A stretch of DNA of 64,000 nucleotides from a virus, in IMG/VR virus record IMGVR_UViG_3300032296_003307, positions 1-64,000 of that record, one strand, 5' to 3'. Shown here piece by piece: positions 4,630-24,506 of this stretch; position 1 is the stretch's first letter; the number at the start of each line of letters is the position of its first letter. A program made the translations under genes and the position numbers. A model generated the notes under the pieces. The model was not told the DNA's origin. It saw only the letters and a list, made by a program, of their open reading frames with translations, and searched no databases.

Positions 4630-5391
4630 ATGATTGGACTGATCTCTTTATTAAAAGAAATAGAAGGAACCCCAAAAGCTATTTTTATGGCTGGCCCAGC
4701 AGGATCAGGAAAATCTTATATATCTTCTAAATTAGTCCCCTCAGATTTTACAACAATAAATGTAGATGATACTTATGAGGAATTACTTAAATCCTCAGGT
4801 ATTGGAATGAAATTAGCTCAAATGTCACCTGATGAATTAAAAAAAGCAGGTGAGTTAATGGGTCAAGCAAGAAAAGCTACTGATGTAAAATATCAAGATG
4901 CTCTCAAAGATGCTAAAAATCTTATAATTGATAGTGTAGGAGGTTCTCCTAAAACATTACTTAAGAAAAAACAACAATTAGAGGATTTAGGTTACACTAC
5001 GTTTATGATAATGACTTATGTTTCGCCTATTACCTCACTAGAGCGTAATATGAAGCGAGATAGATCATTGTTACCAAGTATCGTGCTTCGTTCTTGGCGC
5101 GATGTAAATAAAAATATAGACACATATAAGCAAGCTTTTGGAGCCGACTTTGTATTATTGAATTTAGATCCTGATGATGCTAATAAAAACTTTGATGAAG
5201 AATACATTTATCAAACATTTATTAAACCTTTAGGACAAATAGGTAAAGAAAAATCACCTGAGGAAATAGCAAAATCCAAAGCAGAAACCCAACAAATCTA
5301 TTCAGATATAAAACAAACTCTTAATACACAACCTGAGTTTGATACTTTAGAATCAGCCCAACAAAAAATTACTAATTTTATAAACAAATGA
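4630..5391 (+). CDS. P-loop kinase (zeta-toxin-like) with capsid-targeting-like leader
   Basis: A 253-residue protein. The first ten residues, MIGLISLLKE, match the T4 internal-protein leader in length and in ending with a Leu-x-Glu site. A Walker A motif GPAGSGKS follows at residues 22-29 and an acidic VDDTYEE segment near residue 45, as in zeta-toxin or polynucleotide kinase-like ATPases. A late Arg-rich stretch (residues 138-155) could be the lid. I infer a kinase delivered from the capsid; the substrate is not visible. It overlaps the next gene by 4 nt. Confidence 0.6.
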   Translation: MIGLISLLKEIEGTPKAIFMAGPAGSGKSYISSKLVPSDFTTINVDDTYEELLKSSGIGMKLAQMSPDELKKAGELMGQARKATDVKYQDALKDAKNLIIDSVGGSPKTLLKKKQQLEDLGYTTFMIMTYVSPITSLERNMKRDRSLLPSIVLRSWRDVNKNIDTYKQAFGADFVLLNLDPDDANKNFDEEYIYQTFIKPLGQIGKEKSPEEIAKSKAETQQIYSDIKQTLNTQPEFDTLESAQQKITNFINK

Positions 5392-6065
5392 AGTTATTAA
5401 ATCTTTTATTAAAAATTTATAAAGAAGAATATGATTTGAATCTTAAAGAGGGTTTAATCAAAACTACTAATATTGGTAAAACTATAAACTTACTCAGAGC
5501 ATCTTTTGATTTTGGGTTTGAATATCAAAGAGATGATAATACATTTGAAGTAACCTTTCATCAAATTAATAAAAATATTTTAGATAATTTTTTAAAATAT
5601 GTTAATAATTTAGGTTGGTTTCCTTCTTATATTTCTACTCCAGCATATAAAGGAAAATGGAGAGAAAATACATATGATGATTATTTGTCTAAAATTAGGT
5701 TTGAAGCAAAATTTGATGAAGAAATAGTTGAAAAAATACCCCAAATTCTTTATCATATCACTCCAACTCAAAATGTTAATAAAATTTTAAAAATAGGATT
5801 AGTACCTAAATCAAGATCAAAAGTATCTTATCATCCTGAAAGAATTTATTTAGGAAAATCTATCGGTGGTATAGAAAAATTAGCTCCTCAAATGAATTTA
5901 AGAACTGGAGATAAAAATTTTACAATATTAAAAATCAACACTGATCTAATTCCTGGAGAATATTTAAGATTATATACTGATCCTAATTATAATAAAGAAG
6001 CATTTTACACTTTAAATAACATTCCTCCACAAGCAATAGAAAAAATTAAAGACATACAATTATGA
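5388..6065 (+). CDS. ADP-ribosyltransferase/Tpt1-like protein with leader
   Basis: A 225-residue protein with an N-terminal leader (MKLLNLLLKIYKEE, then LNLKEG) carrying Leu/Ile-x-Glu-type sites. The C-terminal half from residue 120 has the layout of an ART-fold domain: LYHITP, then a helix, then IGLVPKSRSK and RIYLGKS, and a late E in KEAFYTLNNIPPQAI. Such domains use NAD to modify proteins or RNA. T4 packages the ADP-ribosyltransferase Alt in its head, so an injected enzyme acting on the host is the leading inference. A catalytic H-Y-E triad is suggested but not proven. ATGA overlaps join it to both neighbours. Confidence 0.55.
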   Translation: MKLLNLLLKIYKEEYDLNLKEGLIKTTNIGKTINLLRASFDFGFEYQRDDNTFEVTFHQINKNILDNFLKYVNNLGWFPSYISTPAYKGKWRENTYDDYLSKIRFEAKFDEEIVEKIPQILYHITPTQNVNKILKIGLVPKSRSKVSYHPERIYLGKSIGGIEKLAPQMNLRTGDKNFTILKINTDLIPGEYLRLYTDPNYNKEAFYTLNNIPPQAIEKIKDIQL

Positions 6066-6424
6066 AAAAATTAATAGATTTACTTAACGAAATCGAAGAA
6101 AAAGACAACAAAAAAGTTGTTAAAGAAGAACCATCTGTAGTAGATGAGGTAGGAAAATTCTTTGTAGTTAAAAAACCTAAAAAAGGTATGACCAAAGAAG
6201 ATATGGTATATGAAGCTACTGTATTCGATGAAGTAAAAATGGAAGAGGTAAAAGGTGTTTACAAAAACAAATCAGAAGCCAATCGCCACGCCACTGCATC
6301 TTTAATGGAATATGAAAAACAACTTCAGGAAATGGAAGCCGCTGTAGAAGAGTTCCGTGCCATGAAGAAAGATATTGAAGCAAAAAGAAAAGAAGCAGCC
6401 GAAAAAGTTAAAAGTCTTAAATGA
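6062..6424 (+). CDS. Small charged coiled-coil protein with leader
   Basis: A 120-residue protein that begins MKKLIDLLNE, an exact ten-residue leader ending in Leu-Asn-Glu. The remainder is very rich in Lys and Glu, with a long predicted coiled coil from about residue 75 to 118. No enzyme motif is visible. Composition resembles T4 internal proteins, which are small, charged and abundant in the head. Function is unknown; packaging is inferred from the leader. Overlaps both neighbours by 4 nt. Confidence 0.55.
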   Translation: MKKLIDLLNEIEEKDNKKVVKEEPSVVDEVGKFFVVKKPKKGMTKEDMVYEATVFDEVKMEEVKGVYKNKSEANRHATASLMEYEKQLQEMEAAVEEFRAMKKDIEAKRKEAAEKVKSLK

Positions 6425-9400
6425 TAGATTCTATCCTAGAGATATTATTTGAGGAAGACTACACAAAAACAGTAGCCATTTATGGTGGTGGTTTTAAACC
6501 ACCTACCAAAGGTCATTTTAATGTTGTTGAAAAAACATTACAAGAATTACCTGATATAGATGAAGCAATTGTTTTTGTTGGTGGAGGAGTTAGAGATGGT
6601 ATTACCCAAGAAGAATCCTTAACCATTTGGAATATCTACAAAAAATATCTTTCAGATAAAGTTACTATAGAACCATCTGTAGCTCCTGTTAAATCAATTT
6701 TAAATTACGCTAAAGAACATCCTGAAGAAAAAGTTTATTGGATTTTAGGTGCTCGTGAAGGTAATGAAGAAGATTTGACAGATATTGCCAACAGAACTAA
6801 ATCAATTGAAAAATATCCTAACATTGAGGTTAAAGTGATTACCTCCTCAGGTGGTGTTAGTGGTACTAAAACAAGAAAAACCTTATTAGACAATAATAAA
6901 GAACAATTTTTCCATCTCATTCCAGATATAGAGGAAAAAGAGGAAATATGGAACATACTTTCTCCAAAGGTTCAAGAATCATTAGAGGAAGGTTTTATAG
7001 AAAATGCACAAGAAAATATGAAAAAGTTGCTTTTAGCCATTAAACAAGAAGGCAGAGAAACAAGAGATGCCTTTAAGTTAGTTTTAAAAGCAGCCAAAGG
7101 TGAAATCCAACTGACAGACGAACAAAAGAAACAAATTGGAGATCAACTAAAAGATGTTTTGAAAATGGTTGGTTTAGTTAGTATTGCTGTTCTTCCTGGT
7201 AGTTTTATTGTTGGAGCTTTAATTAAAATTTTTAAAGCAGAACGTTTAGTATTTCCTTCATCATTGATGAATGAAGACAAACCCTCAGGTGATTCTAATC
7301 CTTTAGGATTAAAATATATTGATATTTGGCATGAGGGTCAATACAAAGCTGAAGAAAATAAAACAGAAGAAGCTATAAAATTAATGATTCAAGCTGCTAA
7401 AGAAGCTGAAGAATTAGAAAGTATTGGAGAAGCAAATTATTATAAAGGAACTATAGCTTGGTTAAAAAAAGATTATAATACTGTTAACAAATACATTAAT
7501 GATAAATTTGTTAAATCAACAGGTAATGATGAAGTATTAAAACGACTTTTAAATAATAAAGATAAATCTTATAAAGAGGCATATAATACTTCTATAAATG
7601 AAGTTGGAGAAGCAAGTGCTAAAGTTTATCCTTTTTCTTCTGATAAAGATCCTAGTGAAATAATAAATTTAGCTAAAAACTTTTTTAGTAAAGGAACCTC
7701 ATCTAAAGTTTATCAACGAGTTTTAACATATACTTTTTCTACAGATAAAGCCGATTACGTTGTTAAATTTAACATAGAGGTAGAACGTCAAACATATGTA
7801 AACTTCTCTAAAAACCCTGATTGGAAACCAGGTCCTCCATATAAAACATATGCTTCTGTTGGTTTCAATATTGAGGGAGAGGAAGAAGATAAAGATACTA
7901 ATTTAAATGAACAGTTTTCTGTTTTATCTACAGTAACAAAAATTATTTTTGATTTTATTGACAAAATAAATGAAGCTGAAGGTAATTTAGTGTCATTAGT
8001 AATTGCTCCTAAAAGTGATACTGGTGAAGAATCATCATTGAATTCTAAACGAGGTAGATTCTACACAGCATACATTCAAAAGAATTTATCCAAATACCCA
8101 GAATATAAAACCAGAGATGGTAAAAATAATTCAGGGGGTGAATATGTAGAAATTTATAAAACAAACAGTGTAAATGAATTAGAAGAAGGTAGAAAAAAGA
8201 AACCTGATCCTAAAAAAGGAACAGGCAAAAAACCTGAAGGATCAGGTCGTAGATTATACACAGATGAAGATCCTAAAGATACTGTTAGTATTAAATTTAA
8301 AACCAAAGAAGATATAGTTGATACTTTAAATAAAAAACAATTTAAAGCTAAATCACATGCTCGTCAATCTCAAATTATTAATTTAATTCATCAACGAGTA
8401 AGAGCCGCTTATGGTAAAGCAAAAGATCCTGAGGTAAAAGCAAGATTAAAACGTGCTTTAGATTATATTGAGTCTCGTAAAGAGGCATCAAAAGAAAAAA
8501 CAGAACGTTTACGTAAAATGAAAGAAGCATCCGACCCACAAGCAGGAACAGCTTTACCTTATGGTTCAGGATTTGCTCCTGTAAAAGAAAGTTACCAATT
8601 TAAAGTTTCCGATAAAAACTATGATGAAGAAGATAATTCTTTAATTTCAGTTGATTATAAATTTTCTACCCCAGATAATGATTATAGAGTTGAATTTTAT
8701 TCAGGTGAATACAATCCTGAAGCTAAAATATTTGATGTTTCTTTTGGAATAGACAAATATGGTTCTAAAATTGATACTTTCCAAATGACAGGTGAAGGTA
8801 ATGCTTTAAGTATTCTTAAAACTATTGTTGATATTATTAAAGATTTTACAAAACGTTTTGAAGTAAATAAGTTAGTTATTGATCCAACAAGCGAAAAACG
8901 TGGAAAAATTTATTCAATGATATTAAAATCATTACCCCCAGACATCTTAAATAAAGTAGAACTTATAAATGAAAATGATTTATTTGGTTTAAATAAATTG
9001 GATAAAGATTTTGTAAAAGAATCCAAAGAATTAAACGTTCAAGATTTAGCTTATAAACAAATACCAGGACTATTAGAAAAAGGAATTAATTATGGATTAG
9101 CCCATTTTAGAGGATTCATGAAATCTTCTTACAAATGGAGTGGTCCAAAGGATAGAAATGATTTTTTTGATTTTATAGAAAATATAAAAGGAGAAATAAA
9201 ACGAGTTCCTTTATCATCTATAAAACCTTCTCAATCAGGTAATGATTACAAAAATTCCTCTTCAGAATATGAAGCAGAAGAATTTCAAAAAATATTAGAT
9301 GGAGAAAAAAATATAGAGGATCATAGGAAAGAAGATTTTTATCCTATATTAGTTAATAAAAGAGATAATAAAATATTAGATGGAAATCATAGACATTATG

Positions 9401-10434
9401 CTTTATCAGCAATAAATTCACCCTATGCTGTAGTATTATATGTAGATGTTCCTAAACAATATATAAATGAAAAATCAGATCCTTTTGGTTTAAATAAATT
9501 TGCAAAAGACTTTGTAAAAGAAGTTTTTGAAGAAACTTGGAATCCCAAAGACTCGTTCGTATCTTTATCCGTATTTATGAAAGACAATGGAATGAACATA
9601 ACCCCATTGCCTAAAATTAAGGTTATATCAGACGACAAAGAAAATGCGTCGCATCTTTTGGGTAAGACTGCTTACTACAATCCAGCAGATAAGTCAATTA
9701 CTCTTTATACCTTTGGAAGGCACCCAAAAGATGTTTTACGCTCTTTTGCTCATGAAATGGTTCACCACGAACAAAATCTTAATGGTACTTTAGGAAATGT
9801 TAGTACTACTAACACAAATGAAGATGGTCATTTAGATAAACTTGAGAGAGAAGCATATGAAAAAGGTAATATCATGTTTAGAAATTGGGAAGATAGTATT
9901 AAGAGTTCAGTAAATGAAATATATTTTTTAGATATTCCTAAATTCAATTATCCTAAAACATTTGTGGATAAATTACGTAAATCCTTAAATGAAATTACTT
10001 TATCAAAAGATAATGCTGTGGAAATAAATGGAGATTTAACTAATGGAAAATTTCAAGTAGGAGATATAATATATGTGTATTCTATAAAAAATATACCAAA
10101 TCCATATAAAGATGAAGGGGAATTTTATAATGTTTCTTTTTATCCTGAAGATAATATAATTTCTGAACCTTTAGAAGGAAAAGAAAATTATGTTAAAATT
10201 TTATCAACAATGTTCAAAATAATATCTGATTTTTCCGAAAAAGAAAAACCAAAATATATAGGAATATCATCTATGGATAACGACAACAATAAAAATTACC
10301 ATAGAGTATATGCCAATTTAACAGATAATAAATTTAACAGAATACCAGGATACTTTAGAAAAGATGTTAGTCTAGGATTTGATACTCCTCAAGGAAAAGG
10401 TAGATTTGTAGTATTAAAAAGAAAAGATGTATAA
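6421..10434 (+). CDS. Giant multidomain protein, probable protease-processed polyprotein
   Basis: A 1337-residue protein. Visible parts in order: leader (1-13); cytidylyltransferase-like nucleotidyltransferase (17-180; GGGFKPPTKGH and GVSGTKTRK); a segment resembling LETM1-like domains (190-283, hydrophobic LVSIAVLPGSFIVGAL); TPR-like helices (300-390); repeat domain copy 1 (400-582); basic Lys/Arg-rich domain (588-705); repeat copy 2 (723-850); ParB/sulfiredoxin-like domain (920-1010; ILDGNHRHYAL); zinc metallopeptidase (1040-1160; HEMVH at 1111-1115); repeat copy 3 (1192-1337). Boundaries carry Leu-Met-Asn-Glu 285, Ile-Asn-Glu 394, Val-Asn-Glu 586, Ile-Asn-Glu 851, Ile-Asn-Glu 1017, Val-Asn-Glu 1166 and Leu-Asn-Glu 1191. 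I infer cleavage by the prohead protease into several injected proteins. Confidence 0.6.
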   Translation: MIDSILEILFEEDYTKTVAIYGGGFKPPTKGHFNVVEKTLQELPDIDEAIVFVGGGVRDGITQEESLTIWNIYKKYLSDKVTIEPSVAPVKSILNYAKEHPEEKVYWILGAREGNEEDLTDIANRTKSIEKYPNIEVKVITSSGGVSGTKTRKTLLDNNKEQFFHLIPDIEEKEEIWNILSPKVQESLEEGFIENAQENMKKLLLAIKQEGRETRDAFKLVLKAAKGEIQLTDEQKKQIGDQLKDVLKMVGLVSIAVLPGSFIVGALIKIFKAERLVFPSSLMNEDKPSGDSNPLGLKYIDIWHEGQYKAEENKTEEAIKLMIQAAKEAEELESIGEANYYKGTIAWLKKDYNTVNKYINDKFVKSTGNDEVLKRLLNNKDKSYKEAYNTSINEVGEASAKVYPFSSDKDPSEIINLAKNFFSKGTSSKVYQRVLTYTFSTDKADYVVKFNIEVERQTYVNFSKNPDWKPGPPYKTYASVGFNIEGEEEDKDTNLNEQFSVLSTVTKIIFDFIDKINEAEGNLVSLVIAPKSDTGEESSLNSKRGRFYTAYIQKNLSKYPEYKTRDGKNNSGGEYVEIYKTNSVNELEEGRKKKPDPKKGTGKKPEGSGRRLYTDEDPKDTVSIKFKTKEDIVDTLNKKQFKAKSHARQSQIINLIHQRVRAAYGKAKDPEVKARLKRALDYIESRKEASKEKTERLRKMKEASDPQAGTALPYGSGFAPVKESYQFKVSDKNYDEEDNSLISVDYKFSTPDNDYRVEFYSGEYNPEAKIFDVSFGIDKYGSKIDTFQMTGEGNALSILKTIVDIIKDFTKRFEVNKLVIDPTSEKRGKIYSMILKSLPPDILNKVELINENDLFGLNKLDKDFVKESKELNVQDLAYKQIPGLLEKGINYGLAHFRGFMKSSYKWSGPKDRNDFFDFIENIKGEIKRVPLSSIKPSQSGNDYKNSSSEYEAEEFQKILDGEKNIEDHRKEDFYPILVNKRDNKILDGNHRHYALSAINSPYAVVLYVDVPKQYINEKSDPFGLNKFAKDFVKEVFEETWNPKDSFVSLSVFMKDNGMNITPLPKIKVISDDKENASHLLGKTAYYNPADKSITLYTFGRHPKDVLRSFAHEMVHHEQNLNGTLGNVSTTNTNEDGHLDKLEREAYEKGNIMFRNWEDSIKSSVNEIYFLDIPKFNYPKTFVDKLRKSLNEITLSKDNAVEINGDLTNGKFQVGDIIYVYSIKNIPNPYKDEGEFYNVSFYPEDNIISEPLEGKENYVKILSTMFKIISDFSEKEKPKYIGISSMDNDNNKNYHRVYANLTDNKFNRIPGYFRKDVSLGFDTPQGKGRFVVLKRKDV

Positions 10435-10975
10435 ACTTAAATTAACAGACATATACAAACAAATTAAAGAAGAGGAAACACAACCTCAATCAGCTCAACA
10501 ATATACAATTTATTGTGATATGGATGGAGTTATTGCTGACTTTGATAAACGATTTAAAGATTTAAATCCTGAACATTTATCTGCTGCCCAATACCAAACA
10601 AAATATGGTATAGAAAAGTTTTGGGATTTTATAGATGAAGAAAATAAAGTAAAATTCTGGGTTGGTATTCCTTGGATGCCTGATGGAAAAGAACTTTGGG
10701 ATTATATTAAAAAATACAAACCAACCTTGTTATCAGCCCCTTCTAAAAAACCACAATCTCGTTTAGGAAAAAGATTATGGGTTAAAAACAATATTCCAGG
10801 AACTCCTTTGATTTTAGCAGCAGCTGATAAAAAACAGAATTATTCTGGAGGAAATAAAATACTTATCGACGACAGAAAAGATAATGTTGACCAATGGCGC
10901 TCACAAGGTGGTATTGGGATAGCACATACCTCTGCTCAAGATACAATTAAACAATTACAAAATTTAGGATTATAA
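10427..10975 (+). CDS. 5'(3')-deoxyribonucleotidase-like HAD phosphatase with leader
   Basis: A 182-residue protein. After a 25-residue leader region (MYKLKLTDIYKQIKEEE) comes the HAD motif I, YCDMDGVIADF (about residues 28-38), typical of mitochondrial-type nucleotidases. Then follow a WDFID segment, LLSAPSKK (motif II), and ILIDDRKDN (motif IV) near the end. The family removes phosphate from nucleoside monophosphates. The N-terminal extension before motif I is what marks it as candidate capsid cargo. It overlaps the giant gene by 8 nt. Confidence 0.7.
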   Translation: MYKLKLTDIYKQIKEEETQPQSAQQYTIYCDMDGVIADFDKRFKDLNPEHLSAAQYQTKYGIEKFWDFIDEENKVKFWVGIPWMPDGKELWDYIKKYKPTLLSAPSKKPQSRLGKRLWVKNNIPGTPLILAAADKKQNYSGGNKILIDDRKDNVDQWRSQGGIGIAHTSAQDTIKQLQNLGL

Positions 10976-12179: not shown

Positions 12180-12796
12180 TGGAAATTACAATGATTACAA
12201 CCATTCTTGTTGCTTTAATTACAGCCGTAATTGGTCCCGCTGTTTTAGAATGGGTTAAAGCAAAATTGAGAAAAAATGAAGACAAAGACTCTTCAGTAAA
12301 AGAAGCAATTGATGTCAATGAATTAGTTGACCATCAATTAGATCAATTGTTAGAGGAATTAGGTTGTGATCGAATTTGGGTTGGACAATTTCATAATGGT
12401 GGTCATTTTTATCCTACAGGAAAATCAATCCAGAAATTTTCTATTTTCTACGAAAAATTAACCCCAAGTACCTCAGCAATCCAACATATATTTCAACAAA
12501 TACCTGTTTCATTATTTCCAAAAGCTTTATCTAAGCTTTACAAAGATGGAGAATTGGCTGTTGTAAATTACAATACTGATGAAACTTATGATTTAAGTAT
12601 GTTTTCTAAAGACTATGGAACCAAATCTTTTTATATGTTAGCCATAGATGATTTGGACGAACATTTCATAGGAGTAATGGGAATTGCATTCAATGATAAA
12701 GAACATAAATTATCCAAAGAAGAATGGATATTTATACGACAGAAAGTAGGGGCGATTGGTTCCCTTTTAACAGACTATTTATACAAGAAAAAATGA
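12179..12796 (+). CDS. Membrane-anchored GAF-like protein
   Basis: A 205-residue protein with one hydrophobic N-terminal segment (residues 5-25, TTILVALITAVIGPAVLEW) followed by positive charges, which suggests an inner-membrane anchor with the rest in the cytoplasm. Residues 50-200 look like a GAF-type sensor fold, with IWVGQFHNGGHFYPTG near residue 67 and GVMGIAFNDKEH near the end. No output domain is attached. It could sense a small ligand or dock on a host complex. Start and stop overlap both neighbours. Confidence 0.5.
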   Translation: MEITMITTILVALITAVIGPAVLEWVKAKLRKNEDKDSSVKEAIDVNELVDHQLDQLLEELGCDRIWVGQFHNGGHFYPTGKSIQKFSIFYEKLTPSTSAIQHIFQQIPVSLFPKALSKLYKDGELAVVNYNTDETYDLSMFSKDYGTKSFYMLAIDDLDEHFIGVMGIAFNDKEHKLSKEEWIFIRQKVGAIGSLLTDYLYKKK

Positions 12797-13548
12797 AAGA
12801 CATAAACAAAATTAAAGAATTTTTCTCTAAACCTTTAGAAGAAGCAAAAAGAGATATTGACAAGATTAAAAAACAATTAGATGCTTTAGGTGTTAAATAT
12901 GAAATGTCAACCACTGATAAAGTTAGACCATTTAAAGTGATTTACAAACCAGTTAATAAATCAGATGAATTTTATGATAAATTTGAAGACATTGTTGATT
13001 TATTTAACTTAAAAAGTTTTGTAAAATCATCAATGAATGAAGCTAAAAAAGAAGATGCCGTTGATACAATTACAATGGATATTCCTTTATTCCTTCGTAT
13101 GTTAGAATATTCAAGAGAAGATGCCTCTCAAGACATGGATTTACATGATGTTACCGAAAAAGCAAATAAATTAGGTAAAGAAAGAGGTATTTTATCCATG
13201 GAAGACTATGAAGAAATTGTAGGTGCTGCCGAAGATATTAACGAACTTTCAGATTATTTTAAACGTAGAAAAGCCCAAGACGATTACGCTGTTAATAAAA
13301 AAGACAAACCAGCAAAACCTTATAATCCCAACTCTTCAGGCAAAACAGACTACATGAAGCGTAGAGAAAAAGAATTAAATGAAAGAATTTCCGAAGCATT
13401 AAATAAAATCAACGAAGAACTTTGCCCTGCTGGTAAAGCATACATTAAAAAAAGAAAAGCAGCTGGTGAAAAATCATCTGCTTACCTTTCAGGTCGTGCT
13501 GTAAAAGTATGTAAAGGCCAAATGTCAGGTAAAGCTAAGAAAAAATAA
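12793..13548 (+). CDS. Basic multi-segment protein with internal cleavage-like site
   Basis: About 251 residues from the ATG at 12793, which overlaps the upstream TGA as ATGA; the longer frame from 12724 runs back inside the upstream gene and is rejected. It starts MKDINKIKEFFSKPLEE, then a small alpha/beta-like segment to residue 80, then SSMNEAKKEDA, a [LIVM]NE-type site. The C-terminus is a basic tail with two Cys (LCPAGKAYIKKRKAAG, SGRAVKVCKGQ) that recurs in large phages as a small DNA-binding-like domain. Function unknown; leader and site suggest packaged, processed cargo. Confidence 0.5.
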   Translation: MKDINKIKEFFSKPLEEAKRDIDKIKKQLDALGVKYEMSTTDKVRPFKVIYKPVNKSDEFYDKFEDIVDLFNLKSFVKSSMNEAKKEDAVDTITMDIPLFLRMLEYSREDASQDMDLHDVTEKANKLGKERGILSMEDYEEIVGAAEDINELSDYFKRRKAQDDYAVNKKDKPAKPYNPNSSGKTDYMKRREKELNERISEALNKINEELCPAGKAYIKKRKAAGEKSSAYLSGRAVKVCKGQMSGKAKKK

Positions 13549-13838
13549 TGGACTTAATTAGATTACAAGAATTAGTATCTGAATCATTACGCGACTGGTT
13601 TAAAAAAGAAGACTGGGTGCGTATTGATACTCAAGGTAACATTACTGGTCCTTGTGGTACTATGAAAAAGGGTCAAGCAACAACTCGTTGCCTACCTCGT
13701 AAAAAAGCTCAATCATTATCTAAAAAAGAAAGAGCGGCAACTGCCCGCAAAAAAGTAGCTGGTTCTAAAAAAGGAGAACAGTTTGTAAAAAACACAGAAA
13801 AAGCAGAATACAAAAAAGGTACATATCATAAAAAATAA
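13548..13838 (+). CDS. Small basic protein with leader and Cys/Lys-rich domain
   Basis: A 96-residue protein. The leader MDLIRLQELVSE is followed by a compact basic domain: W.RID..GNI.GPCG...KG..TTRCLPRKKA, then a Ser/Lys/Arg-rich helix. This small domain is frequent at the ends of phage proteins, from memory. The strong positive charge fits DNA binding in the head. Start overlaps the previous stop (TAATGG). Confidence 0.5.
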   Translation: MDLIRLQELVSESLRDWFKKEDWVRIDTQGNITGPCGTMKKGQATTRCLPRKKAQSLSKKERAATARKKVAGSKKGEQFVKNTEKAEYKKGTYHKK

Positions 13839-13858: not shown

Positions 13859-14827
13859 ATGAAAAAATTTGACTTAAAAAAGATGATAGCTGAAAACAAG
13901 GCTACATTCTTTTCTTCCTTGAACGAAGGATACGATGAATTCAAAAGAGCAGAAAAAGGCTCTAAAGATGTAACCGCTAAAGACAAAGGCGAAGAAGAAG
14001 TTTACGGAGCCGGAGTTAAAAAAGGTGAAGAAATCGAAAAGAAAAAAATGAAAGAAAATTTAGATTCAAGTTATGACGATTTATATGATTTTGTAGACCA
14101 AAAAATGGTTGAAGGTGATGAAGAAGCCGAAATGCTATTAAACTCAAACCCAAGTTATGATGATTTATATGATTTTGTAGACCAAAAAATGGTTGAAGGT
14201 GATGATGAAGCAGAAGCATTATTAAATAAAATAAATAATATTAATGAAAATAAATCTTCAAAAATGAAAATGTCTGAATTAAAAGCCAAAATCAAAGAAA
14301 TGGTTTTAGCTGAAATGACTTTAGATGTTGATAATATGGAAGATGCCCCAGAATCAGAAGTTGATTTCTTGACTGAATTAGAAGCAATGTTAGATGAGGC
14401 TGATAAAGACACAGAAAAAGATACAGCCGAAACCGATGCTGATGTAACAATAGACGATACAGAAACTATTGATACTGAAACAACAACCGAAGTAGATCCT
14501 AATGTAAAAGCAGTACAAGATGCTTTAACACAAGCTCAAGCAGCTGCTCAAAAATTAGGTGATAAAAAATTAACAGATCAAATTGGTAACACAATTACCT
14601 TCTTCACTCGTACTCACGTTGTTGAAAAACCAGGTGGAGCAGTAGCAGAAAACTTAAATGAAGGTAGAGCAACTTTACCAAAGTTTAAACAATATTTCAA
14701 AATCATGATTGAAAACCAACCAAATGATGTTTTAGATTTAATTATGGATCTTCTTGAACATGATGGTAAAAATTTTGATGAATGGACAAGTAATATTGCT
14801 GATGATATAATAGATACTTTAGGTTAA
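13859..14827 (+). CDS. Acidic leader protein with 28-residue tandem repeat
   Basis: A 322-residue, strongly acidic protein. Leader MKKFDLKKMIAENK is followed by SSLNEGYDEF, a [LIVM]NE site at Glu23. Residues 70-126 hold two copies of a 28-residue unit starting SYDDLYDFVDQKMVEGD. A second leader-like segment (MKMSELKAKIKEMVLAE) follows near residue 137, then a run of Asp/Glu/Thr, then NLNEGRATLPKF and a helical end. The duplicated leader suggests more than one processed product. Role unknown; an internal head protein is inferred. Confidence 0.5.
   Translation: MKKFDLKKMIAENKATFFSSLNEGYDEFKRAEKGSKDVTAKDKGEEEVYGAGVKKGEEIEKKKMKENLDSSYDDLYDFVDQKMVEGDEEAEMLLNSNPSYDDLYDFVDQKMVEGDDEAEALLNKINNINENKSSKMKMSELKAKIKEMVLAEMTLDVDNMEDAPESEVDFLTELEAMLDEADKDTEKDTAETDADVTIDDTETIDTETTTEVDPNVKAVQDALTQAQAAAQKLGDKKLTDQIGNTITFFTRTHVVEKPGGAVAENLNEGRATLPKFKQYFKIMIENQPNDVLDLIMDLLEHDGKNFDEWTSNIADDIIDTLG
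14068..14235 (+). repeat. Two 84-bp direct repeats inside the acidic gene
   Basis: Two in-phase copies with period 84 bp (starts at 14068 and 14152), encoding a 28-residue unit. DNA identity is highest over the first 60 bp, which points to a recent duplication. Confidence 0.8.
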
Positions 14828-14904: not shown

Positions 14905-15075
14905 ATGAACACACAAGAAATCTTTGAAAAAATTGAAGCTCTTTATGAGACATTCAAAGCAGAACATGCTGGAAAATCTAAAGCAGCTCACGGTCGTGCT
15001 AGAAAAGTCCTAGGTGAAATCAAGAAATTGGTAGCCGAATACCGTAAAGCCTCTATTGACGAGGACAAAAAGTAA
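14905..15075 (+). CDS. Histone H1-like (Hc1-type) protein
   Basis: A 56-residue protein. It is a single long helix with mixed charge: EKIEALYETFKAEHAG, then KSKAAHGRARKVLGEIKKL, then VAEYRKASIDEDKK. The GRARK.LGEIKKL.AEYRKAS pattern matches the short histone H1-like proteins that are widespread in Bacteroidota. These bind DNA. Here it could compact the phage genome in the head or displace host nucleoid proteins. It has no clear Leu-x-Glu leader. It lies between two leader-bearing genes and ends 5 nt before the next ATG. Confidence 0.7.
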   Translation: MNTQEIFEKIEALYETFKAEHAGKSKAAHGRARKVLGEIKKLVAEYRKASIDEDKK

Positions 15076-17713: not shown

Positions 17714-18520
17714 ATGGATTTAAAAAAATTAATTAAAGAAGTATTAGAGGATAAAGATTGCTGCAAAGCAAAAAAACCTACTAAAGCGCCTATATTAAAC
17801 GAAAGCTTAGCTCCGCATGAGATATTGTCTGAGGGATTAAAATATCATATAGACAATAAAAAACCGCTTACCGAGCATGTTTACCGTGCTGGTTCAACTA
17901 ATTATTTCCATTTATGGGCTGAAGCCAGAGCACTATATTCTCGTGGTATTCTAGATTTTTCAGGTGATGATTTAGCAATTTTAACTGAAACCCATTTAGG
18001 TGAATTTGGTTACATAACTGAAATAGAAATAGGAGACAAAGTTAAAGCATCTAAAGAATATGGTGGATTATCAGGTGAGGTAGTAGATATTAGAGGTTCT
18101 TTTATTGTTGTTAAAACAAAAGAAGGAAATCAATCATATCATGAATCTGATTTAAAAGTATTAAACAAAGAAGCTAAAAAAGTTCCATTAGATTTTATAA
18201 TGGAAGAACTAGAAGAAGAATTAGACGAAGCTAAATCTAAACCAAAAAAGAAAAATCCCCCAATTGGAAAACCAATGCGTGGTGGTTCTAAAAAGTTTTA
18301 TGTTTATGTAAAAGCACCTGGTGGTAAAATTAAAAAAGTATCATTTGGTCAAGCAGGTATGTCTGCTAAAATTAATAACCCTGAAGCACGTAGAGCATTT
18401 GCTGCTAGACACGATTGTAAAAATAAAAAAGATAGAACAAAAGCATCTTATTGGTCTTGTCGTTTACCTCGTTATGCTAAATTATTAGGATTAAAGTCTA
18501 ATTTTTCAGGATTTTGGTAA
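17714..18520 (+). CDS. Leader protein with conserved phage basic C-terminal domain
   Basis: A 268-residue protein. Leader MDLKKLIKEVLED, then a CC pair, then ILNESLAPHEILSEGLKYHI with two [LIVM]xE sites. Residues 60-95 hold a conserved VYRAGSTNYFHLWAEARALY segment. The C-terminal 80 residues form a basic domain: KFYVYVKAPGGKIKKVSFG, then NPEARRAFAARHDCK and YWSCRLPRYAK. This C-terminal domain is widespread in T4-like marine phages, from memory, without known function. Capsid packaging is inferred from the leader. Confidence 0.5.
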   Translation: MDLKKLIKEVLEDKDCCKAKKPTKAPILNESLAPHEILSEGLKYHIDNKKPLTEHVYRAGSTNYFHLWAEARALYSRGILDFSGDDLAILTETHLGEFGYITEIEIGDKVKASKEYGGLSGEVVDIRGSFIVVKTKEGNQSYHESDLKVLNKEAKKVPLDFIMEELEEELDEAKSKPKKKNPPIGKPMRGGSKKFYVYVKAPGGKIKKVSFGQAGMSAKINNPEARRAFAARHDCKNKKDRTKASYWSCRLPRYAKLLGLKSNFSGFW

Positions 18521-18849
18521 TGATTAAATTTTCAAATATATTAAATGAGGTAAAAAAAGTTAAAGAAACTTTTGAAGAATTTGCTGGAATTAGAGGTAAA
18601 GGTGCTGCTAAAATAGCCGAAAATGCAGAAAAAAAAGGTGGTTTAGCACTTTTAACTTGGCACCATTTTAAGGTGAAAGCTCCCTACTACAAAAAAGCAA
18701 ATGAAGGTAAACTTGATTTAAAAGAAGCCGAAAAAGAATTTAAAGAAACATATAAAAAAATATCCTTAAACATGAGTCAAATCGAATTTCAAAGAGAGGT
18801 TGGTCGTTTAGAGGTTTTAGGTGAGCTTTTAATTAGAAATAAAAAGTGA
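18520..18849 (+). CDS. Small helical protein with ten-residue leader
   Basis: 109 residues from the ATG that overlaps the previous stop (TAATG); an upstream TTG at 18514 adds two residues and would spoil the leader, so I reject it. The protein starts MIKFSNILNE, an exact ten-residue leader. The rest is helical, with GAAKIAENAEKKGGLALLTWHHFKVKAPYY in the centre. Similar small proteins occur in other T4-like phages. Role unknown. Confidence 0.5.
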   Translation: MIKFSNILNEVKKVKETFEEFAGIRGKGAAKIAENAEKKGGLALLTWHHFKVKAPYYKKANEGKLDLKEAEKEFKETYKKISLNMSQIEFQREVGRLEVLGELLIRNKK

Positions 18850-19367
18850 TTAAATTATTAGATATATTAAGAGAAGCTAAACAAGCAGGTACTTTATATC
18901 ATTATACAACAATATTATCTTTACTTAAAATACTTGATAGTAATGTTCTAGGTGATGAAAGTCTTGGAAAATACGCTACAGTTTCTCTCACCAGAGATAA
19001 AAATTTTCATAAGAGAACTAGTATAATACCTACTGAATGTTGTATTGTTATAGATGGAGATAAACTTTCAAATAATTATAAGATTGTTCCTTACCAATGG
19101 AATGCAGCACATTTTAGTGGAAAAAAATCCACAGATACTGGAAAAATTGAGGACCAGATGGAAGAAGAAGTACAAGGTTCAATCAAAGGAGTTAGTAAAT
19201 ATATTAAAGAAATTATTATATATGAACTAGAACTTGATCCTTTACCATTTGATGATGATTTTACTTATGAGGCATCTAAAATAATTGATAAACCTAGTGA
19301 TGAAATAACAGCAAATGATATTATTGAATGGATTGAAAAAAAGGGATATAAAGTATCATTAGCATAA
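18846..19367 (+). CDS. ART-like protein with ten-residue leader, GTG start
   Basis: A 173-residue protein. The GTG start overlaps the previous TGA as GTGA, and gives MIKLLDILRE, an exact ten-residue leader, so this start is well supported. Residues 15-60 read TLYHYTTILSLLKIL, then LGKYATVSLTRDKNFH, which resembles the beginning of ADP-ribosyltransferase-type toxin domains (H-Y-T, then S-L-T-R). A late acidic IKEIIIYELELD segment could supply the catalytic Glu. It is the second ART-like protein of the block. Confidence 0.5.
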   Translation: MIKLLDILREAKQAGTLYHYTTILSLLKILDSNVLGDESLGKYATVSLTRDKNFHKRTSIIPTECCIVIDGDKLSNNYKIVPYQWNAAHFSGKKSTDTGKIEDQMEEEVQGSIKGVSKYIKEIIIYELELDPLPFDDDFTYEASKIIDKPSDEITANDIIEWIEKKGYKVSLA

Positions 19368-19378: not shown

Positions 19379-19648
19379 ATGATTAAATTATTAGAAGTAT
19401 TAAACGAATCTCCTCAAAGCAGCTATCCTCCCTACATGTATTCTCCTATTGGGTTTGGATGTCATGTATGTAAATATCATTACATAGAAGAAGGAAAACA
19501 TATGTGTTCCAACAAATACTATCAAGAATACATTTCAGAACAGTTTCCTGATTTAGAGGATCCTGCTGAATTAGTAGATAATGAAGGTAATCCGATTAAA
19601 GATCCTTCAAAATGGTGTTCAAATTGGTTTATGCCTAAAGGTAAATGA
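19379..19648 (+). CDS. Small Cys-rich protein with ten-residue leader
   Basis: An 89-residue protein that starts MIKLLEVLNE. It then has GCHVCKYHY, HMCSNKYY and a late KWCSNWF, so four cysteines that may bind zinc or an iron-sulphur centre. No known enzyme is recognised. The ATG at 19379 follows an AATATATTAAC sequence, a weak relative of the TATTTATA box. It overlaps the next gene by 4 nt (ATGA). Confidence 0.5.
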   Translation: MIKLLEVLNESPQSSYPPYMYSPIGFGCHVCKYHYIEEGKHMCSNKYYQEYISEQFPDLEDPAELVDNEGNPIKDPSKWCSNWFMPKGK

Positions 19649-19905
19649 GACCTTACATAGACTTAGAGGTTACAGATTCTTATATTATTCGTGAATTTAG
19701 CGAAAATATAGACCCTATAGAATTACTATGGCATCGTGATGATGAAAACAGAACAGTTGAAATAATTGGTGAAACAGATTGGAAATTACAATTAGATAAT
19801 CAATTACCAACCTCTATAAATCAACCCATATTTATACCAAAACACGAATGGCATCGTGTTATTAAAGGAACAGGAACACTAAAATTAAAAATATACAAAT
19901 CATGA
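19645..19905 (+). CDS. Small cupin-like protein
   Basis: An 86-residue protein. The core LLWHRDDENRTVEIIGETDWKLQLDNQLP and late IFIPKHEWHRVIKG carries His and Asp residues spaced like a metal-binding cupin barrel. It has no leader. A partial second copy lies at 20672. Such proteins are frequent in large phages, from memory; function unknown. It overlaps the next gene by 4 nt. Confidence 0.5.
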   Translation: MRPYIDLEVTDSYIIREFSENIDPIELLWHRDDENRTVEIIGETDWKLQLDNQLPTSINQPIFIPKHEWHRVIKGTGTLKLKIYKS

Positions 19906-20507
19906 TTTTAACAGAAGAGATATTATTACTTCAAAAAAGAGCAGGCATCATTACTGAGGCCGAATACAAACAAAAACTTTCAGAAGTTGATGTTGAAGAT
20001 GAAATGTTTGCTGCAATGAAATCTGTAGCCAATATGATAGATACAGGTGCAGATAAGGTAAAACCTTCAACAAAAGATGGTCAACTACAAGAGGTTGGTG
20101 CTTTAACTTTAGGTGCTTTAGTAACTGGTGCTCCTGGATTACTTTCTGTTTTGGGTAAAGGTGCTAATTTAATAGGAAAAGTATTTGGAAAAAATAAAAA
20201 CAAAGTTGGTGAATTTTTAAAGAAAAAAGGACATCAATTAGAAGAATATTATCTTGAATCAATTGGAGGTTGGCTAAAATCAGCTTATCCTTCAAAATAC
20301 AATGATCAAGATCCTTTAGACAAAACAACTCCTTTATATGATGCTGCCCATAAAATTTATGGATCTCTTTTAATAGGAGCAGCCCTAGTATCAGGATACG
20401 AAGCAGGACAAGCATCAGGAATAGTACAAAAAGGAGTTGAAGGAGGTTTAGCTCTTCTTAAAGGTAAAGAAGTAATTGATATTGCTCAAAAGATAGCTGC
20501 TGCTTAA
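19902..20507 (+). CDS. Leader protein with two hydrophobic segments
   Basis: A 201-residue protein. MILTEEILLLQKRAGIITEAEYKQKL carries Ile-x-Glu sites; its LQKRAGI resembles the WQKLAGI end of the scaffold. Hydrophobic, Gly-rich segments lie at about residues 63-95 (LTLGALVTGAPGLLSVLG) and 148-185 (YGSLLIGAALVSGYEAGQA). The polar region between them is helical. If packaged, it could insert into the membrane during DNA entry; that is inference from hydrophobicity. Confidence 0.5.
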   Translation: MILTEEILLLQKRAGIITEAEYKQKLSEVDVEDEMFAAMKSVANMIDTGADKVKPSTKDGQLQEVGALTLGALVTGAPGLLSVLGKGANLIGKVFGKNKNKVGEFLKKKGHQLEEYYLESIGGWLKSAYPSKYNDQDPLDKTTPLYDAAHKIYGSLLIGAALVSGYEAGQASGIVQKGVEGGLALLKGKEVIDIAQKIAAA

Positions 20508-20819: not shown

Positions 20820-21059
20820 ATGAAATACTCAGAATTAAAACAAATTATTAAAGAAGAAATCCAAAAAGTTTTAAAAGAAAATTCTATAAAAAAGGATATT
20901 AATTATGATGAAGAATATCAAAAAATTCGACAAGAAATAATGGATGATTGGGGTTTAGTAGATGATGATATGGATGATGAAGAAAATGAGAATGATGTTA
21001 ACAGGGAGGCTGATGAAATTTTTTATGAAAAATTTGGAATAAACTTTTCAGATTTATAA
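20820..21059 (+). CDS. Small acidic protein with leader
   Basis: A 79-residue protein. MKYSELKQIIKEEIQKVLKENS has two Ile/Leu-x-Glu sites. The rest is very acidic (a run of Asp, Met and Glu around residues 45-60). No family is recognised. It is the last gene before a terminator. Confidence 0.45.
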   Translation: MKYSELKQIIKEEIQKVLKENSIKKDINYDEEYQKIRQEIMDDWGLVDDDMDDEENENDVNREADEIFYEKFGINFSDL

Positions 21060-21073
21060 ATAATATTTACAGG

Positions 21074-21186: not shown

Positions 21187-21194
21187 TATTTATA
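21187..21194 (+). promoter_or_regulatory. TATTTATA box
   Basis: Located 10 nt before the ATG at 21205. Confidence 0.5.
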
Positions 21195-21204
21195 ATAGAA
21201 TAAT

Positions 21205-21846
21205 ATGATTAGTATATATATTTTAGAAAAAAATAATATTCCTTTTTATGTAGGAAAATCAAAAGATCCTATAAGAAGAAAACATAGACATAGACAAATA
21301 TATGGAGATGATATTGTTTTTTATGTAATAGATAAAGTAGAAGAAAATAATTGGAAATTCTGGGAATGTTATTGGATAGAACAATTTAGGCAATGGGGAT
21401 TTAATTTAACTAATAAAAACAAGGGTGGAGGAGGGCCTACAAAATGGACAGATATTCAAAAAGAAAATATTAATCCCTCTCGAATTAATGAAATAAAAAA
21501 TAATAAAGATAGAGGAATAAAAATTAGTAAAACTTTAAAAGAAAGAAACCATTCTCAATATTATACACAAGAGGTTAAAAATAAAATTAGCATAAAAAAT
21601 CAAAAACCAAGACCATTTACTAAAAAACACATTGAAAATATGGGTATAGCTAAACGAAAACAAGCCACTCCTGTACTACAGTACGATTTAGAAGGTAATT
21701 TTATTAAAGAATGGGAAAGTAAAGGACAAGCCGCCCTTTGGATAAAAGAACAAACAGGTAAAACAAGTAATTTGGTTTCTCAAATAAAAGATTGTATATT
21801 AGGGAGACAAAAAACCGCTTTTGGATATAAATGGAAATATAAATAA
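21205..21846 (+). CDS. GIY-YIG homing endonuclease with NUMOD1-type tail
   Basis: A 213-residue protein. SIYILEKNNIPFYVGKSKDPIRRKHRH is the GIY-YIG core at residues 3-30, with the catalytic E in FWECYWIEQF near residue 53. Residues 115-150 are Lys-rich helices with modular DNA-binding features, and the end (VLQYDLEGNFIKEWESKGQAA, then GYKWKY) matches the NUMOD1 pattern. It is a free-standing mobile endonuclease, with its own box and preceded by a terminator. It lacks the capsid leader. Confidence 0.8.
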   Translation: MISIYILEKNNIPFYVGKSKDPIRRKHRHRQIYGDDIVFYVIDKVEENNWKFWECYWIEQFRQWGFNLTNKNKGGGGPTKWTDIQKENINPSRINEIKNNKDRGIKISKTLKERNHSQYYTQEVKNKISIKNQKPRPFTKKHIENMGIAKRKQATPVLQYDLEGNFIKEWESKGQAALWIKEQTGKTSNLVSQIKDCILGRQKTAFGYKWKYK

Positions 21847-21854
21847 TAAATAAT

Positions 21855-23213
21855 ATGGATAAATATAATAAAAAAATTGTAATTGTTGGAAGTGGAGTAG
21901 CGGGAGCTAACGCTGCCACTAAATTAGTAGACAATGGATACCCCGGTCATCTGATAACAATGATTGATATGGGTAATGATCCTTATGAGCGTAAACCTGA
22001 AGAAGTAATGACAGGTTGGCTAGGTAGTGGAGGGTGGAGCGACGGCAAATTAACTTACCATACAGCAATTGGAGGTCAATTATCTAAATATGTTGGTGAA
22101 AAAAAAGCAATGGAATTAATGGATGAAGTCATTAATAACTTCAAACGTTTTCACCCTAAACCAGAGGAAGTACAATGTTCAAATCCAGAGGAAGAACCAG
22201 AATTTATTAAACCATATTTCGGATTAAGACTGTTTCCTGTTTGGCACGTAGGAACTGATTACCTACATGAAATTGGAAAAAATTGGTATGATTATTTAGT
22301 TTCTAAAGGTGTAGAATTTATTTGGAATGAAAGAGTATTTAAAGTTGATTTTGAGTCTCATTTAGTATATCGTACTGTTGATGGAAAAGAAGGTCATTAT
22401 GCTTTAGAATACGACCAACTTATTTTTGGAGTAGGTAAATCAGGTATTGACTTTGCTCAATCAATCCAAGATGAATATCAATTAGAAACAGAACCAAAAT
22501 CAGTTCAAATTGGAGTTAGATTTGAAGCACCACAACACCATTTTCAAAAATTAATTGACATTTCTTATGATTTTAAATTGTATCGTAAATTTGAAGATAA
22601 AGGTGTTTCATTACGTTCGTTCTGTACTAACAACAATGCTGCTTATGTTGCTGTAGAGGAAACTTATGGTGATTTGTCTTATAATGGCCATGCTAAAAAA
22701 GATCCAAAATATAGAAACGATATGACTAATTTTGGTATTTTGATGGAAATCAATGGAATTAATAATCCTTTTGAATGGTCACGTAATGTTGTAAATAAAC
22801 TACAATTTGGAGGTAGAGGTTTGTATTATTCTCCCTCTCGTACTCCTTCTAAAACATCTGAAGGTGAAGAAGTTAATGCTTTCCAAATTGATTTTTTACA
22901 TGGTGTAAAAGAAGTTATGGGTGAATATTGGAATTATATAGAGGATTTTATTGAGGATATGAAAAAAGTATTCCCAACACTTAAAGATGATTGGGGAGTT
23001 TATATTCCTGAGGTAAAATATCTTTCACCTGAACCCCTAGTTTATCCAAGTGATTTAGCTCTAATTGATTACCCAGATGTTCATTTTGTTGGTGATGCTT
23101 TATCAGCAAGAGGAATTACAGTAGCCGGAAGTCAGGGAATATTATCTGTTTCTAAACTAATTAAAAAAGAGGATGCGTGGGATAATATCCATGGTGATAT
23201 AGTTCATTGGTAA
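21855..23213 (+). CDS. FAD-dependent oxidoreductase-like protein
   Basis: A 452-residue protein. The N-terminus has a dinucleotide-binding motif (IVIVGSGVAGANAA, residues 7-20). A GSGGWSDGKL segment follows near residue 55 and the C-terminal VHFVGDALSARGITVAGSQG provides the second FAD contact, as in NAD(FAD)-utilising dehydrogenases of the HI0933-like type. It is intact and of full length. Substrate cannot be told. Such a flavoprotein is an unusual phage cargo and may alter host metabolism or RNA/protein modification. It has no leader, so it probably acts in the infected cell. Confidence 0.7.
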   Translation: MDKYNKKIVIVGSGVAGANAATKLVDNGYPGHLITMIDMGNDPYERKPEEVMTGWLGSGGWSDGKLTYHTAIGGQLSKYVGEKKAMELMDEVINNFKRFHPKPEEVQCSNPEEEPEFIKPYFGLRLFPVWHVGTDYLHEIGKNWYDYLVSKGVEFIWNERVFKVDFESHLVYRTVDGKEGHYALEYDQLIFGVGKSGIDFAQSIQDEYQLETEPKSVQIGVRFEAPQHHFQKLIDISYDFKLYRKFEDKGVSLRSFCTNNNAAYVAVEETYGDLSYNGHAKKDPKYRNDMTNFGILMEINGINNPFEWSRNVVNKLQFGGRGLYYSPSRTPSKTSEGEEVNAFQIDFLHGVKEVMGEYWNYIEDFIEDMKKVFPTLKDDWGVYIPEVKYLSPEPLVYPSDLALIDYPDVHFVGDALSARGITVAGSQGILSVSKLIKKEDAWDNIHGDIVHW

Positions 23214-23216
23214 AAT

Positions 23217-23247
23217 TTGGCTTTTTAAAATAAATTTATTATATTAC
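23217..23247 (+). promoter_or_regulatory. Putative TTG-N20-TAnATT promoter
   Basis: TTG at 23217-23219, 20 nt, then TATATTAC at 23240-23247, just upstream of the ATG at 23252. Same spacing as the sites at 2861 and 62575. Confidence 0.4.
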
Positions 23248-23251
23248 AGTT

Positions 23252-23500
23252 ATGAATACGAAATACGAACCAAGTAAACGACTGAAAAAAGCAGATGGTA
23301 CTATTGCTTATGTTTGGGATGGTAAACTACATAATTGGGAAGGTCCTGCTTTAATTCCTGAAGGCAACGAACGTAAAAGAGAATATTATATTCATGGTAT
23401 TCAATATACTGAAGATGGTTGGAAAGAAGCAAGACGTAATCGTGAGGGATTACCATGGTTTAAAAATCCATCAATTACAAATTCAAGAACAGCTGGTTAA
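23252..23500 (+). CDS. Small protein of unknown function
   Basis: An 82-residue protein with an AYVWDGKLHNWEGPALIPEG segment and EYYIHGIQYTEDGW, a short W.G.A..YY.nG beta-repeat pattern seen in phage and bacterial proteins. No signal peptide, leader or catalytic motif. It is 2 nt from the following kinase gene. Confidence 0.45.
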   Translation: MNTKYEPSKRLKKADGTIAYVWDGKLHNWEGPALIPEGNERKREYYIHGIQYTEDGWKEARRNREGLPWFKNPSITNSRTAG

Positions 23501-23502
23501 TT

Positions 23503-24033
23503 ATGAAAATAGGATTATGTGGAACAATGAGTGTAGGTAAAACTACATTAGTAAATGCTTTAAAGCAATTACCTGAATTTGCAGATTATAATTTTGCAAC
23601 TGAACGTTCAAAGTATTTACGTGATTTAGGTATTCCATTGAATACTGATTCGACATTAAAAGGTCAAGTTATATTTTTGGCAGAAAGAGCTGCTGAATTA
23701 ATGAATGAAAATATCATTACTGATAGAACAGTTATTGATGTTATGGCTTTTACTAAAGTAGCTCAATCAATTAATTACTATGAGGCAGAAACTTTTTGTG
23801 ATTTAGCTAAAAATCTACTTCATGAATATGATTATATATTTTATGTATCTCCTGATGGTGTTGAAATGGAAGATAATGGAGTAAGAGAAATTGACTTGAA
23901 ATACAGAGAGCTTATTGATAATATTATTCAATTAAATTTAGAAAAATATAAACTTCGTATTAAAAACCTTGCTGAAATATCAGGAACAACTGAAGAACGG
24001 ATTGAAAAAATTAAAGAGACAATTTTTGGTTGA
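23503..24033 (+). CDS. P-loop ATPase/kinase, NadR- or deoxynucleoside-kinase-like
   Basis: A 176-residue protein. Walker A is GTMSVGKTT at residues 7-15, followed by a RSKYLRDLG element and an ITDRTVIDVMAF motif near residue 72 (D-R as in nucleoside kinases). A C-terminal Arg/Lys helix may be the lid. This organisation fits the NadR-type ribosylnicotinamide kinase or AAA-type nucleotide kinases. No leader is present. Substrate uncertain. Confidence 0.6.
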   Translation: MKIGLCGTMSVGKTTLVNALKQLPEFADYNFATERSKYLRDLGIPLNTDSTLKGQVIFLAERAAELMNENIITDRTVIDVMAFTKVAQSINYYEAETFCDLAKNLLHEYDYIFYVSPDGVEMEDNGVREIDLKYRELIDNIIQLNLEKYKLRIKNLAEISGTTEERIEKIKETIFG

Positions 24034-24041
24034 TATTTATA
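24034..24041 (+). promoter_or_regulatory. TATTTATA box
   Basis: Located 3 nt before the ATG at 24045, just after the previous stop. Confidence 0.5.
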
Positions 24042-24044
24042 ATC

Positions 24045-24506
24045 ATGAGAAAATCTGATTTAAAAAACGAAATCAAAGAATATATCTACGAAATATTATC
24101 TGAAGTAACAATGGTTGGTCCTGATACAGAACTTTCTGATATCCCTTCTATAGCCAAATCAGAAAAAACAAATCCAACAACAGTTAAAGCAGCAATTGAT
24201 CAAGCTAAAAAAACAAAACAAGCAGTTGCTGTAGCTGAATCTGATGATGAAGATAGAGAACCTACCAAAGCAGAATTAGCAAAAGAAAAAGTAAAAACTG
24301 TTTCTAAATTCAAAATCCCAAACTCTGAATTTGAAGATTTTAAAACTAAACTTAAAACTTTAGTTAAGAAAATCAAAGCAATGGAATCAGGTGAAGAAAA
24401 AACCAAAAAGATGGCCGCTTTAAAACAATTCATTAAAAAACCAGAACTGGTTAAAGCATTCAAAGAAAGAGACGTTCAAATTGATACTGACGGATTAGTC
24501 GGTTAA
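24045..24506 (+). CDS. Lys-rich protein with leader
   Basis: About 153 residues from ATG 24045; an upstream start at 24030 lies before the box and adds MIFII, so it is rejected. MRKSDLKNEIKEYIYEILSEVT carries Ile-x-Glu and Leu-x-Glu sites. The remainder is Lys/Glu-rich and helical, with no enzyme motif. Last of the continuous leader-bearing block. Confidence 0.5.
   Translation: MRKSDLKNEIKEYIYEILSEVTMVGPDTELSDIPSIAKSEKTNPTTVKAAIDQAKKTKQAVAVAESDDEDREPTKAELAKEKVKTVSKFKIPNSEFEDFKTKLKTLVKKIKAMESGEEKTKKMAALKQFIKKPELVKAFKERDVQIDTDGLVG

Follow-up and report, generated by a model that had tools for sequence, protein, structure and literature searches.

A putative modular head-cargo system with candidate capsid-targeting leaders in an uncultured T4-like phage

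The leader-gene block and the head genes

A T4-like myovirus is encoded in the window, the whole 64,000-base stretch of DNA analysed here, which covers bases 1-64,000 of a viral record 268,739 bases long. Among isolates, the myovirus is closest to Flavobacterium phage vB_FspM_immuto (NC_055915; host Flavobacterium sp. LMO8), with 53% identity between the capsid proteins. The order primase, exonuclease, block of leader genes, terminase, portal, S77 protease, scaffold and capsid protein is common to both phages. Leaders of the A, B, C and D types described below are also carried by immuto, where predicted cut sites (marked here by a slash) are MISIYNILKE/VISPTQ, MIKLIDLLTE/SLFPFH, MRLLELLRE/AKEAIE, MENFDLKKFLVE/NKLTTN and, in the capsid protein, IVSE/ANVTG. 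The block genes of immuto are annotated as hypothetical or mis-named proteins, and no mention of its leaders was found in the literature searched. The immuto orthologue of the gene starting at 18520 (L016:12261-12575), for example, is labelled as the tRNA(Ile2) agmatinyltransferase TiaS, apparently in error.

The record contains two full head modules, one per half, each complete with terminase, portal, S77 protease and capsid protein. Genomes related to the first half measure 136-176 kb and those related to the second half 272-296 kb. Because the relatives of each half have a single S77 gene, and because the best gene matches change near ~121 kb of the record from an immuto-like group to the 272-296 kb jumbo group, the record is most likely a chimeric assembly of two T4-like phages, with the window inside one of them. 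The same grounds led us to discard, as the likeliest reading, one genome bearing both head modules. All claims made here rest on the first phage of the record and its relatives.

The genes listed in a first-pass annotation of this DNA, which are named here by their start positions, were recovered by an ORF check at or near the positions given there. For 18520 the start is an ATG that lies 6 nt into an ORF opening with TTG; the start at 12793 lies in frame within an ORF listed at 12724, and one relative likewise begins MKDIQKIKEFFSKPLNE. The gp21-like protease that had been proposed at 31270 is well supported as an S77 enzyme (Table 1), with the invariant His of GEL[DN]HP, the Ser of SSRG and the Asp columns in common with T4 gp21. 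The adjacent candidate scaffold has a conserved end, as 22 distinct sequences of its C-terminus finish in RWQKLAGIK or a close variant, and V/IxE is kept across the group at the predicted cut site of the major capsid protein. In addition, the protein encoded at 29472-30410 contains SNSFFTSGGEGENHTG, which resembles the capsid protein segment SNSFYQSGGQGENWAG just past the predicted cut site.

Table 1. Leaders, cargo genes and head genes in the window. A slash marks the predicted cut site.
Feature	Position	Strand	Evidence or remark
A-type leader MIGLISLLKE/ of P-loop kinase of zeta-toxin type (gene 4630-5391)	4630..4659	+	Pfam Zeta_toxin 4.8e-9
Predicted Tpt1/ADP-ribosyltransferase-fold protein, leader MKLLNLLLK without Glu	5388..6065	+	fold search, orthologue leaders
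A-type leader MKKLIDLLNE/ (gene 6062-6424); homologues with A-, C- or other leaders	6062..6091	+	
1337-aa multidomain protein, leader MIDSILEILFE/E, internal LxE junctions	6421..10434	+	
Leader MYKLKLTDIYKQIKE/ of NT5C-type deoxyribonucleotidase (gene 10427-10975)	10427..10471	+	PHROG 2643, 9.9e-25
Leader MKDINKIKEFFSKPLEE/, internal junction KINE/ELCPAG further on	12793..12843	+	
Leader MDLIRLQELVSE/ before SLRDWFKKE body	13548..13583	+	body elsewhere after unrelated domains, always with LxE junction
B-type leader MKKFDLKKMIAE/, second site SSLNE/	13859..13894	+	
Leader MDLKKLIKEVLE/ (gene 17714-18520)	17714..17749	+	63 relatives
A-type leader MIKFSNILNE/ (gene 18520-18849)	18520..18549	+	28 distinct orthologue leaders
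A-type leader MIKLLDILRE/ (GTG start), predicted ADP-ribosyltransferase-fold protein	18846..18875	+	L8, E10 invariant in 7 aligned sequences
A-type leader MIKLLEVLNE/ of small Cys-rich protein	19379..19408	+	
D-type leader MILTEEILLLQKRAGIITE/	19902..19958	+	QKxAGI peptide in common with scaffold tail
C-type leader MKYSELKQIIKEEIQKVLKE/	20820..20879	+	
C-type leader MRKSDLKNEIKEYIYEILSE/	24045..24104	+	47/60 family members scored C-type
Leader MGKYKFKLSE/, non-T4 register	29472..29501	+	Lys at 7
Leader MEKTLQQQYILIKE/ in head cluster	30654..30695	+	
S77 (gp21-like) prohead protease	31270..31872	+	PF03420 2.1e-30; PHROG 207, 2.1e-57
Candidate scaffold/core protein, starts MANRDLLKE/AIADAK	32081..33172	+	between protease and capsid protein; acidic, LxE-rich; conserved termini
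Scaffold C-terminal tail FARWQKLAGIK	33137..33169	+	peptide copied in D-type leaders
Predicted 60-residue propeptide of major capsid protein, ends LVTE/TN	33213..33392	+	same place as FLTE/AE in T4 gp23

Leader enrichment, register and classes

The frequency of [LI]xE with its Glu at residues 5-14 was compared with that in random internal windows of the same proteins. The motif is found in 15 of the 27 block proteins (expected 3.6±1.8, with a maximum of 9 in 1000 random sets) and in six of the nine proteins of the head cluster (expected 1.4±1.0), while the neck and tail genes have it in 7/30 (expected 2.3) and the rest of the window's phage is not enriched (15/83 vs 11.6±2.8 expected). Thus, the LxE signal is concentrated in the block and the head cluster, where it had first been noticed. 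Over whole genomes the enrichment is significant in the window's phage and weak in two relatives, G006 (29 vs 27.4 expected) and G008 (35 vs 28.1), because only a minority of genes have leaders, and LxE alone is therefore insufficient as a per-gene test.

The first-pass annotation counted at least 18 proteins with a single T4-type leader. That observation is confirmed, with the list slightly too generous; 5388, 16102 and 29472 are non-canonical: the leader of 5388 has Lys where three orthologues have Glu (MKLLNILLE), 16102 has no LxE after its helix, and 29472, whose relatives keep FKYK[LI]KE, has Lys at position 7 and hence departs from the T4 capsid-targeting form. The Glu is indeed residue 10 in all six of the proteins for which this had been claimed (4630, 6062, 18520, 18846, 19379 and 29472); the strict T4 form is present in the first five, vs ~0.3 expected from shuffles, and the other listed members belong to further leader classes or are polyprotein junctions. 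Leaders are absent from 11607, 12179, 16590, 19645, 21855 and 23503 in the block. Among the genes resembling in-cell enzymes or mobile elements that had been described as leaderless, this holds for 21855 and 23503, and the GIY-YIG-like 21205 contains ILE by chance.

In T4, IPII and IPIII start with MKTYQEFIAE and gp24 with MAKINELLRE. Residues 4 and 7 of the T4 leader serve targeting and residues 8 and 10 processing, and an altered residue 10 can stop cutting without stopping targeting, as seen with Asp at that position (PMC9026906). The A-type leaders described here have hydrophobic residues at 4, 7 and 8 and Glu at 10, which is the same register. Among 28 distinct leaders of 18520 orthologues, Glu is at position 10 in 24 and at position 9 in four, and in the 24 the residues at 4, 7 and 8 are always hydrophobic and those at 5, 6 and 9 variable. 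Similarly, M1, I2, L4, L8 and E10 are invariant over 49 distinct leader DNAs of the 4630 kinase family, in which position 7 is Leu or Ile. The residues used by T4 for targeting and processing are thus conserved in A-type leaders of two body families, and this pattern is absent from 29472 and from the non-A leader classes. In the 4630 family, L4 is encoded by five codons and position 7 by six; this synonymous variation at conserved residues shows selection on the peptide, and a DNA- or RNA-level element was rejected.

The A-type form occurs 112 times at residue 1 vs 0.4 in shuffles and at 1/9728 internal Met, counts for a form defined post hoc and inflated by orthologues; more generally, the motifs for some counts were written after examples had been seen, and related phages do not supply independent contexts. 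In ~160 related loci, the A-type leader precedes no fewer than 27 non-homologous bodies, predicted enzyme folds among them, in agreement with the earlier suggestion of an arsenal larger than that of T4 and with varied enzyme domains. Further recurring classes are FDLKKYLAE (B), SELKxxIKE...LxE (C) and MQKLAGIITE (D), and leaders are swapped before the same body, with A or B found in the CPxPTQ family, D or B in that of 19902 and A or C in that of 6062. N-terminal sharing among otherwise unrelated genes was above the internal and C-terminal controls for most of the genomes tested, fragment G009 being an exception. In tblastn searches of isolates with bare leaders, the B and D types matched immuto only and the leader type of the second phage group matched nothing.

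Cargo bodies, internal junctions and the scaffold tail

In addition to the kinase and the nucleotidase (Table 1), two bodies are predicted to have ADP-ribosyltransferase folds. Fold searches placed Tpt1 and DarT on top for a model of 18846 of moderate quality (E 3e-3, probability 0.99-1.0), and Tpt1/KptA for a poor model of 5388 (pLDDT 63; E 6.7e-5). Sequence searches of the PDB with 18846, 5388 and 4630 gave nothing significant, no relatives of the predicted ADP-ribosyltransferases were confirmed in bacterial genomes, and no cargo body was matched to a T4 internal protein or to Alt. T4 packages Alt, an ADP-ribosyltransferase; 18846 and 5388 have no Alt-family match in Pfam or PHROGs and have only the superfamily fold in common with it, and the parallel is therefore functional only. 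The 1337-aa protein 6421 has Pfam matches to DUF6934, weakly to a nucleotidyltransferase at its start and to zincins, and a ParB-like region was recognized in it from reading the sequence only. A 56-aa protein (window 14905-15075) that starts MNTQEIFEKIEALYETFKAEHAGKSKAAHG and has a basic end of histone-like appearance is also kept in the block of relatives.

Body modules were also found inside larger proteins, after unrelated domains, and there a hydrophobic-x-Glu lies no more than 13 residues upstream in 38/38 distinct cases, against 6/38, 5/38, 15/38 and 3/38 in four control windows, a count that does not translate into a probability because the cases share ancestry. For example, the predicted ADP-ribosyltransferase body follows its leader as LLRE/AKQVG and appears inside polyproteins as PLSE/AKQVG, DLNE/GKQVG and RLNE/GKQIG. 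In 6421, internal LxE junctions fall after residues such as 589, 702, 723, 867 and 1038. With P3 and P1 fixed by the selection of contexts, hydrophobic residues at P4/P7 have frequencies of 0.08/0.22 at internal sites vs 0.57/0.66 in leaders. Internal sites that keep P3 and P1 and lose the hydrophobics at P4 and P7 are what would be predicted if targeting and cutting were separate functions. Both phage groups contain a recurring zinc-ribbon-like module, CxKCGWxWxLxxGGxDxYxCHxCGHxN (e.g., L006:7287-8018), which in the window's group is positioned directly before LxE junctions.

The D-type class, RMQKLAGIITE, resembles the scaffold tail RWQKLAGIK. Of 29 QxLAGI-type matches, cargo N-termini account for 15 and C-terminal ends, nearly all belonging to scaffolds, for 11; when 490,492 11-mers were scored with the D-leader profile, scaffold tails were among the highest-ranking. 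D-type leaders copy the conserved C-terminal tail of the scaffold. The second phage (L006-L007, record positions 124,000-163,000) has dozens of genes with shared N-termini of their own (MKKIVRLTESDLLRIVKRVLKE, MKIIITESQ, MNLQESIRRILREE and MKRFIITEEEKKRIL). An N-terminal similarity graph joined 70-103 genes per genome in its group, some of them falsely; Pfam domains are scattered among these genes, and some members (a glycosyltransferase and a sigma-70 protein) look like false leaders. The scaffold of this group (L011:10386-12026) ends in a tail, FLRMKDLMGKLQK, that resembles the group's RIKEMMGLL leader and ranks 4th of 192,493 11-mers, which is suggestive of a possible second case of scaffold-tail copying.

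A proposed head-cargo system and its known counterparts

Taken together, we consider it very probable that the leaders are capsid-targeting propeptides of an expanded, modular head-cargo system of T4 type, from which we infer packaging, cleavage and injection of the proteins that bear them. Within the prohead as it grows, the N-terminal leader would dock a protein on the scaffold or core, or on the shell like the tail of the scaffold itself; the S77 protease encoded at 31270 would then cut after [L/I/V]-x-Glu to release the mature protein, and would also cut polyprotein cargo such as 6421 at its internal LxE junctions. DNA would be packaged around the cargo, and both would enter the next host cell. 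The cargo would comprise the two predicted ADP-ribosyltransferase folds, the P-loop kinase, the deoxyribonucleotidase and the multidomain protein, and it probably serves takeover or counter-defence, such effector roles being predicted from the bodies. A T4-type leader cleaved by a gp21-like protease, as first proposed for this block, is the best-supported explanation in light of register conservation, peptide-level selection, leader swaps, internal cut sites and scaffold-tail mimicry. We lean slightly towards a broader reading, in which head loading is general and uses several interchangeable address peptides, one of them copied from the scaffold C-terminal tail, polyproteins are cut in the head into separate effectors by the prohead protease, and a second large-phage group has expanded leader families of its own to dozens of genes per genome.

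Alternatively, the leaders could anchor minor structural proteins or assembly factors in the core of the prohead and be cleaved in head maturation, most of the proteins that bear them not being injected effectors. The LxE motifs near the starts of the S77 protease, scaffold and capsid protein themselves are consistent with such a role, as is the contiguity of the block with the head genes; however, the bodies turn over fast between relatives and, like the T-even internal proteins, include enzyme folds for which a part in assembly is not obvious, which makes this an unlikely account. We hold it to be very improbable that the N-termini serve some other purpose, such as addressing the protein to a membrane or replication site, acting as a degron or promoting translation, with LxE as a by-product of amphipathic helices. 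The leaders are short amphipathic helices, and residues 4-11 of the 18846 model form a low-confidence helix, but codons are free to vary at the fixed residues, LxE is kept at internal junctions that lack the helix hydrophobics, and one peptide is common to the scaffold tail and leaders.

Chance would require only that Glu- and Leu-rich phage gene starts often yield LxE, and the background of ~1.2 LxE per 100 residues and the near-expected totals of G006 and G008 point in that direction. It is refuted statistically for the block as a whole by the block count, and the A-type count at residue 1, even if inflated by orthologues and a post hoc form, argues the same way; its probability is close to nil, and single genes such as 21205 remain chance. 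If the head-cargo interpretation is true, the injected protein set would be readable from sequence in uncultured T4-like phages, and a large stock of enzymes that are candidates for counter-defence and takeover would become accessible beyond the three T4 internal proteins. In addition, a concrete mechanism of docking is suggested by the scaffold-tail copy, and since immuto is in culture, the head-cargo prediction can be tested directly. The literature searched, which covered few subscription papers, contained no report of scaffold-tail copying or of a leader code this large.

Three known systems invite comparison. As in the ejection proteins of SPN3US and phiKZ, head cargo here would be made with N-terminal propeptides, and a gp21-related protease would cut these after x-x-Glu; however, the SPN3US protease cuts after AxE and most SPN3US propeptides have 111-254 residues (PMC10052503), whereas sites in the window's group are [LIV]xE and leaders mostly span 9-20 residues. 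Polyvalent proteins of phages and conjugative elements are predicted to be injected (PMC5512222), and 6421 is similarly multidomain, near virion genes, and has nucleotidyltransferase-, ParB- and metallopeptidase-like parts. Unlike polyvalent proteins, modules in the window's group recur as separate leader-tagged genes, and their junctions have sites of the prohead-protease type, which suggests S77 processing rather than self-cleavage. T4 has three internal proteins, all of which inhibit GmrSD restriction enzymes, each blocking one, and about ten internal proteins have been reported across the T-evens (PMC12373910). The likeness to IPI-III, Alt and gp24 propeptides lies in the 10-residue leader with hydrophobic residues at 4, 7 and 8, Glu at 10 and an [LI]xE cut, and, as with the T4 internal proteins, short propeptides (10-20 residues) ending in [LI]xE are found in the window, a cognate S77 protease is encoded in the same genome and unrelated bodies stand behind one leader. 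Unlike T4, the window's phage group has leaders of several classes, one of which copies the scaffold C-terminus, as well as internal junctions and a far larger number of bodies.
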